From: Deltaproteobacteria bacterium
GTDB taxonomy: Bacteria > Desulfobacterota > GWC2-55-46 > DRQE01
Length of the DNA: 64,000 nucleotides
Reading direction: 5' to 3'
NCBI GenBank assembly: GCA_015492245.1
Contig: WGFM01000025.1
Span: forward strand, 1 to 64,000
The translations under genes and the position numbers were made by a program. Below, piece by piece: positions 1-3,012 of this stretch (its first letter is position 1; the number at the start of each line of letters is the position of its first letter). Below the pieces are notes generated by a model that saw nothing but the letters and a program-made list of their open reading frames with translations, did not search any database and was not told the origin of the DNA.

Positions 1-179
1 GGAGCCATTTTGATGGCTGTTTCAAACTCCTTCAAGGTCTCCTTCCGACTTACCCGCACAAGAGAAAAGGCAGGGAAAATAAAACTCTCCCTTTCTCCTT
101 TGCTGGATTGATGATAATGAAATCCACCCACACCCGCCCAGAAAAGGAATTTGACTTTTTGCTTTTCTTTGCTATCCAT
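1..179 (-). CDS. Partial hypothetical protein, running off the left edge
   Basis: Read from the minus strand, not in the ORF track: MDSKEKQKVKFLFWAGVGGFHYHQSSKGERESFIFPAFSLVRVSRKETLKEFETAIKMA..., open to the window edge. Confidence 0.55.
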   Translation of the reverse strand, partial: MDSKEKQKVKFLFWAGVGGFHYHQSSKGERESFIFPAFSLVRVSRKETLKEFETAIKMA

Positions 180-235
180 TATTATGTGATGTTAAATGAT
201 GATAAACTCTGGCAGGTTAAAAAGGAGTTAAAACT

Positions 236-442
236 ATGATGGAAGGGTTTTCTGAAATAATGACCCTTAAGGAGACGGCAAAATATTTAAAAATAGGAAA
301 ATCTACTCTTTATAGAATGGCAAGGGAAGGCAAAATCCCTGCGGTGAAAATCGCTAATCAATGGAGATTTAGAAAAGATGAAATTGATAAATGGTGGCGT
401 GAAGTAAGAAATAAGGAAATTCTTACCCACAAAGAAAAATAA
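236..442 (+). CDS. Excisionase-family helix-turn-helix DNA-binding protein
   Basis: MTLKETAKYLKIGKSTLYRMAREGKIPAVKIANQWRFRKDEIDKWW is the HTH_17/excisionase signature. Confidence 0.85.
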   Translation: MMEGFSEIMTLKETAKYLKIGKSTLYRMAREGKIPAVKIANQWRFRKDEIDKWWREVRNKEILTHKEK

Positions 443-543: not shown

Positions 544-626
544 GTATAACGTTCCGCGGACATACGAAGTTCGGCTTTGCCGAATTTCCGCGGAGCGAAA
601 CGTAGCTGGTATGTCCGCTGTTAGGC
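544..626 (-). repeat. attC-like site (integron cassette recombination site), minus-strand orientation
   Basis: Minus strand: GCCTAAC-A-GCGGACATAC...TTCGGC-AAA-GCCGAA...GTATGTCCGC-GGAAC-GTTATAC. Outer simple-site-like ends, 10-bp perfect arms (556-565/609-618), inner hairpin 570-584. Confidence 0.55.
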
Positions 627-637
627 GACGTTGCCAC
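620..637. repeat. 18-bp inverted repeat, arm A (pairs with 1776-1793)
   Basis: GTTAGGCGACGTTGCCAC vs reverse complement of 1776-1793, GTTAGGCGACATTGCCAC (17/18). Confidence 0.9.
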
Positions 638-641
638 ATTT

Positions 642-1760
642 TTACTGACCATCCTGAACATATTTAAATCCAAGTTTAATCGAAAGTTCAGCCTTCATCA
701 GTTCCTTCCCAAGGTATGCAGCATGTGTTAGCTGGGTAATCCATCCATTTTTGATAATTGTCCAGTATATGCTTCTTGCATCTTTCCCTTCAATGATCCT
801 TAACAGCCTGTTATCGTAAGAATAATGCTCCACTGTAATAATTTTCTTTTCAGGCTGTGGAATGATAACAAAATAACCTGCTTTATCCATTTCAACTTTA
901 TCAGGCTCCTGAGCTTGAATGACAGGTGCGGAGAGAACTTGGCTGGAATCAGCTTTCTCTATATATTCCTTACAACCACAAGATGCAATAACTTCTTGGG
1001 AGAGTTCTTTTATTATTTTAACGATTTCCTTTTCATTCTCACATCCAATCATATCTACAACCTGAACCTGTTTCCGAAAGACCTCTATCTCCTTCTGGGT
1101 AACATTTCTTAAGATAGGACGCTTTCCGGGAGAGCCTACAACTCTCATATTCTCATCTACACCATTTTTCCACAGAGCAAGCAGTGTTTTACCACTATGA
1201 TGACCCTCAGGGTCTTTACCAACCAAAAGAAGAACGCGAATGGTAGGATTTGTTATCGTATTCTTGATAATTTTGTCAATGCCTATATTCTCTGTCTCTG
1301 TCTTACCCACAATACAGAGTTCTTTTGGTCTTATGCTGACAAGCTTTTCTGCGAGTTCCATATTTGCAAGGGTTGAAACTGCTACAGGGCAGTTTGCTCC
1401 GTCGCAGAAAGCAAAATACTCACCAGGGACAGGAGGCCAAGTTTGCTCCCCAATCTTAAAGGTGCAATTTGTAGCATGAAAGCCAGCATCAGGAAAAGCG
1501 TGGCTAAAAATATTCATTGCTACCGCAGGATAGCAGTATTCACATCCAAGGCAAGCATATTTTACTGGTTCCATCTCCTTAAGCCACTGTTTTATATTAT
1601 TGAGTAATTCAGAAAAGCCTTCAATTTGGACTAAGGAAAGAGAATACCGAAGACTTTCCAAAGTTTCCTTCATGCATCCACATTTTTTACATTTTGCAAG
1701 TTCCATTCCTTTCTCCAGTTCGGATTGAATGTTGTCTATTTGTTTTTTCTTTAACATCAT
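642..1760 (-). CDS. Tetrahydromethanopterin S-methyltransferase subunit A (MtrA)-like protein with C-terminal DUF4346-like domain
   Basis: TENIGIDKIIKNTITNPTIRVLLLVGKDPEGHHSGKTLLALWKNGVDENMRVVGSPGKRPIL resembles the MtrA corrinoid domain; C-terminal GYFVIIPQPEKKIITVEHYSYDNRLLRIIEGKDARSIYWTIIKNGWITQLTHAAYLGKELMKAE resembles DUF4346. Confidence 0.75.
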   Translation of the reverse strand: MMLKKKQIDNIQSELEKGMELAKCKKCGCMKETLESLRYSLSLVQIEGFSELLNNIKQWLKEMEPVKYACLGCEYCYPAVAMNIFSHAFPDAGFHATNCTFKIGEQTWPPVPGEYFAFCDGANCPVAVSTLANMELAEKLVSIRPKELCIVGKTETENIGIDKIIKNTITNPTIRVLLLVGKDPEGHHSGKTLLALWKNGVDENMRVVGSPGKRPILRNVTQKEIEVFRKQVQVVDMIGCENEKEIVKIIKELSQEVIASCGCKEYIEKADSSQVLSAPVIQAQEPDKVEMDKAGYFVIIPQPEKKIITVEHYSYDNRLLRIIEGKDARSIYWTIIKNGWITQLTHAAYLGKELMKAELSIKLGFKYVQDGQ

Positions 1761-1775
1761 TCTTCATCTCCTTAA

Positions 1776-1793
1776 GTGGCAATGTCGCCTAAC
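1776..1793. repeat. 18-bp inverted repeat, arm B
   Basis: GTGGCAATGTCGCCTAAC, near-perfect inverted copy of 620-637. Confidence 0.9.
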
Positions 1794-1831
1794 TCGTTCA
1801 TATACGCATTTCGGAAAATTGTACAGCTAAT

Positions 1832-1919
1832 GGACAAGGTCTCCACCTTGATGTGGTAAGATTAAGGTGGATGAACCCCAAAGAACTTACCACATTGGAA
1901 AAGAGGAGACACCTTGTCC
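1832..1919. repeat. Nested inverted repeats upstream of the transposase
   Basis: GGACAAGGTCTCC (1832-1844) vs GGAGACACCTTGTCC (1905-1919); ATGTGGTAAG (1851-1860) vs CTTACCACAT (1886-1895), perfect; TCCACCTT (1842-1849) vs AAGGTGGA (1864-1871). Confidence 0.75.
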
Positions 1920-3012
1920 CCAATAGAATATTACCAGTTAATAAAAGATATGAAAAGTAGTTTTGACTTAAGATTAAGAATGGTTCAATATGCCCTGAAA
2001 CACTCAAAGTCAGAGGCTTCAACGGTCTTTGGCACAACGAGGGATACCGTCCGAAAGTGGGTTGAGCGTTATCTCAAAGAAGGTCCAAAAGGGCTCATCG
2101 ATAGACCCAGAAGACCCAGACACTCTCCCCACAAGATACCCGATGAGCTTGAAAAGAGGATACTCTCCCTGAGAGAGGACTTTCCCCACATGGGTCCAGA
2201 AAGGCTCAAGAGCCAGTTTTCTCTACCCTGCTCCAGTGGTGCCATATACAGGGTATTGAAACAGAACGGGATGATTAAACCCCGAAAGAAGAAGTACCAG
2301 AGAGAGAGGGATTTAAGGCACATAAAGGCTCTCTATAGGCCCTTTGAGAAGATACAGATAGATGTGAAGGAACTTAAGGATATAGTGGAGCTATATCCAG
2401 CACTCAGGCGGTATAAACTTCCTGTGTATCAGTATACGGCAAGATGTGTAAGGAGTGGGGCGAGTTTCATCTCCTATGGGTTTGAACAGAGCCTTACCAA
2501 TTCCACTGTTTTTGCGAGGTATGTGCTTGGGCACTTAAGGGATATGGGTATAGATGTGGGGGTTGTTCAGACTGACAATGGAGGTGCGTTTGTTGGGGGA
2601 TGGCAGAGCAAGGGGGGCGAGTGTTTTTACTGGGACTGTTGAGGGGGAATTTTGTATGATACACAGGCGTATTCCCCCTGGGGCTAAGACATGGAACTCT
2701 CTTGTCGAGGCCTTTCACAGGCTTATAGAGGAGGAGCTGTACAGGGTTGAGGGATTTGGTTCTCTGGGGGATTTTCTGCGTAAGGCATATACCTATAATC
2801 TTTACTTCAACTATCTGAGGAAGAACAGTTACAAGGGAGGAACTCCGTGGGAGATTGTGGTGGAGTGTTTTGGAGAGGTGGATAAGAAACTTCTATCTCT
2901 ACCACCTGTAATCCTCGATAATCATCCCCCATGGAAAACTGAAGACCTTGTTGGTGAAGAGTACACTTTCATATCATATCCGCACCCATTTGATTTATCC
3001 CCCTTCTTGTGA
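1914..3012 (+). pseudogene. IS481/IS3-like DDE transposase (helix-turn-helix plus rve), split by a +1 frameshift near the G6 run at 2612-2617
   Basis: ORFs 1914-2642 and 2554-3012 are the two halves of one protein: HTH (TVFGTTRDTVRKWVERY), catalytic D in FEKIQIDVKEL, D in VVQTDNGGAF, E in WNSLVEAFHRLIEEE. Confidence 0.85.

Follow-up and report, generated by a model that had tools for sequence, protein, structure and literature searches.

A putative orphan gene cassette in a Desulfobacterota genome and candidate integron-like platforms with an integrase lacking the I2 domain

Integrons in which attI lies downstream of intI have been described in Treponema (PMC3607928) and in archaea (PMC9668308), and orphan attC clusters are common (PMC9668308). 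In known attC sites the L stem carries two or three extrahelical bases, including a G in L'' and a T 6–8 nt away (PMC2727003), and the I2 helix of the integrase is held to be the key innovation that allowed a double-strand recombinase to use a folded single-strand attC (PMC7790495). The locus described here lies in a 64,000-nucleotide stretch of contig WGFM01000025.1, referred to below as the window. Similar to the Treponema and archaeal integrons, the system to which it appears to belong has a tyrosine recombinase gene that points at attI, uniformly oriented cassettes with toxin-antitoxin cassettes among them, attC boxes of the form RYYYAAC/GTTRRRY, and a G^TT crossover. Unlike them, its integrase lacks the additional domain of IntI and has a HARP-like N-terminus, its attI-like site consists of two palindromes of ~21 bp, several platforms can occur in one genome, and its attC stems have a fixed 1/5-nt spacer and no canonical extrahelical bases. 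The window cassette also resembles a CALIN, or orphan attC cassette (IntegronFinder usage), in that no integrase neighbors it in its genome; unlike a CALIN, it still occupies an attI-like site that can be recognized as part of a platform seen in relatives. Overall, positions 550–1792 of the window are very probably a mobile cassette of an integron-like system with an I2-less integrase, present here as an orphan. Comparison with relatives shows an attC-type hairpin, an insertion at an attI-like site that is fixed in the island, and other cassettes, single or in tandem, at the corresponding sites of relatives.

The minus strand from 1793 to 544 has the complete layout of a gene cassette, which can be read directly from the letters as originally predicted. 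The cassette start, GTTAGGCGACATTGCCAC (1776–1793), is followed by an RBS-like AAGGAG and an ATG at 1760; the cassette gene (642–1760, minus strand, 372 aa) is followed by the post-ORF segment GTGGCAACGTCGCCTAAC at 637–620 and a hairpin site ending in GTTATAC (550–544). The MtrA/DUF4346 assignment of this gene holds, with Pfam matches to MtrA (PF04208, 1e-35) and PterinBD-DUF4346 (PF14251, 4e-23). The protein also matches NF002128 at 2e-128, yet under the cut-off of that model, and is a putative methyl-H4MPT:CoM methyltransferase subunit A-like or pterin-binding protein. It may be expressed from its own or from an upstream promoter and may serve C1/pterin metabolism; its gene is single-copy in the genome. 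The two ends form an inverted repeat (620–637 against 1776–1793) that is complementary at 17 of 18 positions, as had been noted, and occurs once in the genome; the cassette start pairs with its own R'' at 13 of 14 positions. With crossovers G^TT at 1793/1792 and 550/549 and closure of the ends, the predicted excised unit spans 550–1792 on the minus strand.

The attC-like recombination site (544–627, minus strand) consists of R'' GCCTAAC (626–620), a 1-nt spacer, 10-bp L arms, two terminal hairpins, a 5-nt spacer and R' GTTATAC (550–544). The perfect 10-bp arms (GCGGACATAC/GTATGTCCGC) and the inner TTCGGC-AAA-GCCGAA hairpin are both there. Boxes of the R'' RYYYAAC and R' GTTRRRY type flank this hairpin 3' of the ORF, and G^TT lies at the cassette start; in place, R' is one position off GTTRRRY, and it reads GTTAGGC once the circle is closed. 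The linear site folds more stably than its shuffles (z -3.2, plus-strand fold). The circularized ends close into one 105-nt hairpin at -38.0 kcal/mol, whereas 100 shuffles give -14.1 ± 2.8. In this form the plus (bottom) strand is favored by 4.4 kcal/mol over the top strand (-33.6), which folds differently. In the bottom strand, an 18–19-bp R helix is separated by a one-sided bulge of 4 nt from an L helix of 10 bp, beyond which two terminal hairpins form, giving an unpaired central spacer that is one-sided (5 nt versus 1 nt) and a branched tip. Folding this strand had been suggested as a way to find extrahelical bases; the L arms of the window site have none and are perfectly paired over 10 bp. 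An Rfam search gave no match, and no site similar to that of the window was present in a plasmid collection. Two matches of short attI-like patterns to viral contigs lie inside ORFs and were dismissed as chance.

The right junction of the window cassette is a putative attI-like site, which is ~89 nt long in its full form. Only the last part of this site is left in the window because an IS481-like element (about 1821–2966) sits there. The remnant (1786–1820, minus strand) comprises half of palindrome P2 and ATATGAACGAG^TTAGGC; it was recognized by pattern, its junction is identical in a relative, G050, and it scores 29.4 bits with model R1 (E 0.0018 in its own genome). R1 and the hairpin model R2 are both home-made from the loci under study, and their E-values are rough. 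R1 describes two ~21-bp palindromes with a CC-AAAT-GG center, followed by GAACGAG^TTRRGC. The insertion sequence (1821–2966, plus strand), at or in the attI-like site, has a terminal inverted repeat (1816–1845/2940–2969), the domains HTH_28, HTH_32 and LZ_Tnp_IS481, and a transposase split into two overlapping ORFs (1914–2642 and 2554–3012). When the DNA was joined across the IS to rebuild a whole attI, the upstream side showed only GCGGATAT, which is not convincing. Among 395 genomes of the phylum, mostly fragmented MAGs, R1 matches occur in 44, with up to eight copies per genome, before cassette-type starts; the junction core ATATRAACGAGTTANGC was found by pattern search in five of the 395, always before a cassette-type start. 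Two genomes, G364 (L132, L176, L177) and G059 (L179, L180), have several attI-like sites with cassettes and no integrase remnant upstream, and an attI-like module of this type may move with its cassette. Delta-attI-type cassettes of mobile integrons (PMC12901181) similarly tie attI-derived sequence to individual cassettes, although those belong to IntI1 systems with resistance genes.

Comparison with relatives provides evidence of insertion. G050 belongs to a different family within the class. It shares the left flank of the window cassette, made up of the end of an HTH_17 gene and ~100 bp extending to GTATAAC, at 81% identity, and its right junction, CTCGTTCATATACGCAT, is also the same; the hairpin site in between differs, and so does the gene, which codes for a DNA-alkylation-repair protein. 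G166 has the same left flank with restriction-modification cargo, so that the flank beyond the attC site (443–545) is common to both genomes around different cassettes. Comparison of G050 with the window thus shows exchange of cassettes at a fixed site: in G050 these flanks enclose another gene, so the window cassette was inserted rather than inherited in place. The original prediction was to be abandoned if sister genomes carried the gene between the same flanks in synteny. The opposite was found: no homologue of the gene is present in 62 other genomes of the class, and the 12 nearest MtrA/DUF4346 homologues, whose flanks were read, lie elsewhere without attC-type flanks.

Independent loci repeat the anatomy of the window site, more than expected by chance. 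In an alignment of 11 sites (A5), RYYYAAC-A-stem ... stem-GGAAC-GTT is common to all. The asymmetry of the 1- and 5-nt arm-to-core spacings had been taken as a departure from a textbook attC; the asymmetry stands, and since the 1/5-nt spacer is constant in A5, it is a trait of the family and not an oddity of this site. Stem covariation is 0.683 versus 0.257 in shuffled alignments (0 of 500 as high), with both-sided changes in nine of 12 pairs; the 12-pair stem is 86% paired across the family and has no conserved single-base bulge. Model R2 matches the window at 542–627 (77.3 bits), the window site being part of its training set, and yields 40 matches in a set of 99 loci; every one of them falls in a locus that had been retrieved around an attI-like site or its island. 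Thirty-nine R2 sites share their locus with an attI-like site; 38 of them are on its strand and 36 lie downstream, and the three exceptions are probably explained by a neighboring or out-of-range attI-like site. Tandem arrays of three to five sites are present in G100 (L169), G238 (L200) and G099 (L256). Cassette starts pair with their own R'' at 9.7 of 14 positions, versus 6.6 for the DNA after the site and 7.4 for the starts of other cassettes. On variable bases, closure with the own cassette reaches 5.97 of 10 versus 3.78 when permuted, and none of 10,000 permutations was as high, although closure fails in several loci (own match of 4–8 of 14). This cassette-specific closure in arrays of related sites, and the other gene inside the same flanks in G050, support the mobile-cassette reading. 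Most well-paired cassettes have an A/G difference at position 11; the bottom strand then has a T.G wobble there, the top strand an A.C mismatch.

One tyrosine recombinase subfamily is linked to the attI-like site. Its 19 copies (at least 57% identity, reaching the C-terminus) include 16 that end within 44 bp upstream of such a site, compared with none of 13 more distant recombinases. The remaining three are a copy in G221 that precedes a variant attI-like site, recognized by eye, and an array; one that lies at a contig end; and one that is followed by an array. An open integrase frame, an attI-like site, a HicB-HicA cassette and an attC follow each other in G100 (contig C54). The combination of an attI beside an integrase gene with tandem arrays is found in relatives, whereas the window has one cassette, an attI cut by the IS, and no integrase. 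Many attI-like sites lack an integrase remnant, and G364, for example, has sites but neither a subfamily integrase nor IntI. When aligned with the IntI proteins of the phylum, the subfamily integrases lack the ~45-residue insertion that forms the additional (I2) domain; what they have instead is a HARP-like region at the N-terminus. In a midpoint-rooted tree of a small sample, IntI forms one clade (100/100), with the I2-less integrases beside it and XerC/D-type recombinases far off. XerA-type recombinases (NF040815; PDB 5hxy, 4a8e) share a SAM-like and a catalytic domain without the IntI insertion; unlike those, the genes described here neighbor attI-like sites and arrays of cassettes, and they group with IntI in the tree.

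A search for an intI gene and further attC sites had been proposed as a check. The window's genome has neither an IntI nor a second attC-like site, which makes the cassette an orphan, and the I2-less integrase is absent as well. The TIGR02249 matches in this genome score under the cut-off and belong to Xer or phage-like recombinases, and one recombinase split over contigs C28 and C8 reads as XerD. The integrase found beside attI-like sites in relatives lacks the additional domain. The integron-type label fits the cassette, while the platform in relatives is linked to an IntI-like integrase without the additional domain and not to IntI itself. The IntI loci of G166, G057 and G099 were rejected as platforms because of their solitary position and different surroundings; the true IntI genes there (L115, L117 and L119 in G166, G099 and G057, respectively) look solitary. 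The IntI of G052 (L097) is extended at its N-terminus by a segment similar to the one in the I2-less integrases. The IS91-like integrases in G207 and G248 were rejected as the platform enzyme, as no attI-like site lies beside them; two loci, L240 and L241, have a tyrosine recombinase directly upstream of a ~400-aa gene in an IS91-like layout, and these recombinases fall next to IntI in the tree.

In the mechanism we propose, cassettes would be excised and inserted by the tyrosine recombinase whose gene immediately precedes the attI-like site in relatives; this enzyme is closely related to IntI but lacks the I2 domain, and its N-terminal domain is HARP-like. The enzyme would cut at G^TT, acting on a double-stranded attI and the folded bottom strand of attC. 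It would choose the strand by the one-sided spacer and by the long R helix, which contains a T.G wobble when formed by the bottom strand but an A.C mismatch when formed by the top, and not by extrahelical bases read by I2. The window's genome would have lost the integrase and had its attI cut by the IS, leaving an orphan cassette that is probably no longer mobile without help in trans. It is reasonably probable, judging from these sequence comparisons, that the phylum harbors a second kind of integron, in which an IntI relative that never gained, or has lost, I2 recognizes attC sites without extrahelical bases through the one-sided spacer and long R helix and inserts at a double-palindrome attI, the window cassette being part of its cargo.

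Alternatively, an ordinary cassette may have been handled by a canonical IntI in trans, as a CALIN or a secondary attG-type insertion, with the I2-less integrase a bystander. The R''/R' boxes, orientation and closure agree with integron rules, IntI is common in the phylum (above cut-off in 134 of 395 genomes), and integrase-less cassettes are common in bacteria (PMC9668308, PMC8618304). Among the 44 attI-like-positive genomes, 17 hold an IntI that could act in trans, which is no significant enrichment (p 0.29). A designed comparison of 80 genomes, none of them in R2 training, makes this alternative unlikely: R2 sites are present in 18 of 20 attI-like-positive genomes versus 2 of 60 others (p 1e-13), in nearly equal measure with IntI (10 of 11) and without it (8 of 9), and where the attI-like site is missing they are found in 2 of 30 IntI-only genomes and 0 of 30 with neither. 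The hairpin family tracks the attI-like site, not IntI. No R2 match occurs in 38 loci around true IntI genes, which are mostly short (~4 kb); moreover, the junction is a conserved attI-like site and not a random GTT, and the stems lack extrahelical bases of the kind read by I2.

It is also conceivable, though very improbable, that we are dealing with a small non-autonomous transposon, bounded on the left by the attI-like site and on the right by the hairpin, which has hairpin ends and moves by single-strand transposition. Such an element would account for the multiple copies at unrelated positions within a genome, which often enclose a single gene, and for the 5' edge of the attI-like site, which looks sharp. 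However, tandem arrays have up to five hairpin sites with one or no left end, hairpins pair with their own cassette start, and integrase tails lie directly upstream of the left end. A fixed chromosomal gene that merely has a chance inverted repeat and a terminator-like hairpin would be single-copy in a genome without integrase, as the window gene is; this reading can hardly be entertained, as it is refuted by the flanks shared with G050 around another gene, and the examined homologues and the 62 other genomes of the class likewise speak against it.

If the preferred reading, a cassette of an I2-less integron, is correct, the I2 step becomes directly testable, with candidate intermediates in living genomes. 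Surveys based on IntI would miss a class of gene-capture platforms that carry toxin-antitoxin, metabolic and other genes in environmental bacteria. A literature search, with most subscription journals and preprints outside its reach, found no earlier description of integron-like systems with an I2-less integrase or of an ancestral integron, and the novelty of the platform is provisional.

At the island end, the window has a 68-aa excisionase-like HTH_17 gene (236–442, plus strand; PF12728 4.5e-19; TIGR01764; MADS MAD1-like). Similar genes adjoin integrase remnants in G166 and G411, and one is fused to the integrase in G098, where HTH_17, a HARP-like region and the integrase N-terminus are naturally joined in a single ORF (L079 318–1160, contig C8). 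Islands in the window (1–442) and in four other loci (L075 8176–13320; L077 3127–12264; L076; L078) start with GGAGCCA, which is the 3' end of tRNA-Asn in G321. Their ends carry inward-facing HTH_17 (excisionase/MAD1-like) genes in inverted repeats, which in G321 are 530 bp long and 100% identical. The cargo of these islands varies and includes restriction-modification genes, an OLD-type ATPase with a serine recombinase, and a BrxC/D-like ATPase, and the HTH_17-bounded island cells are chained side by side.
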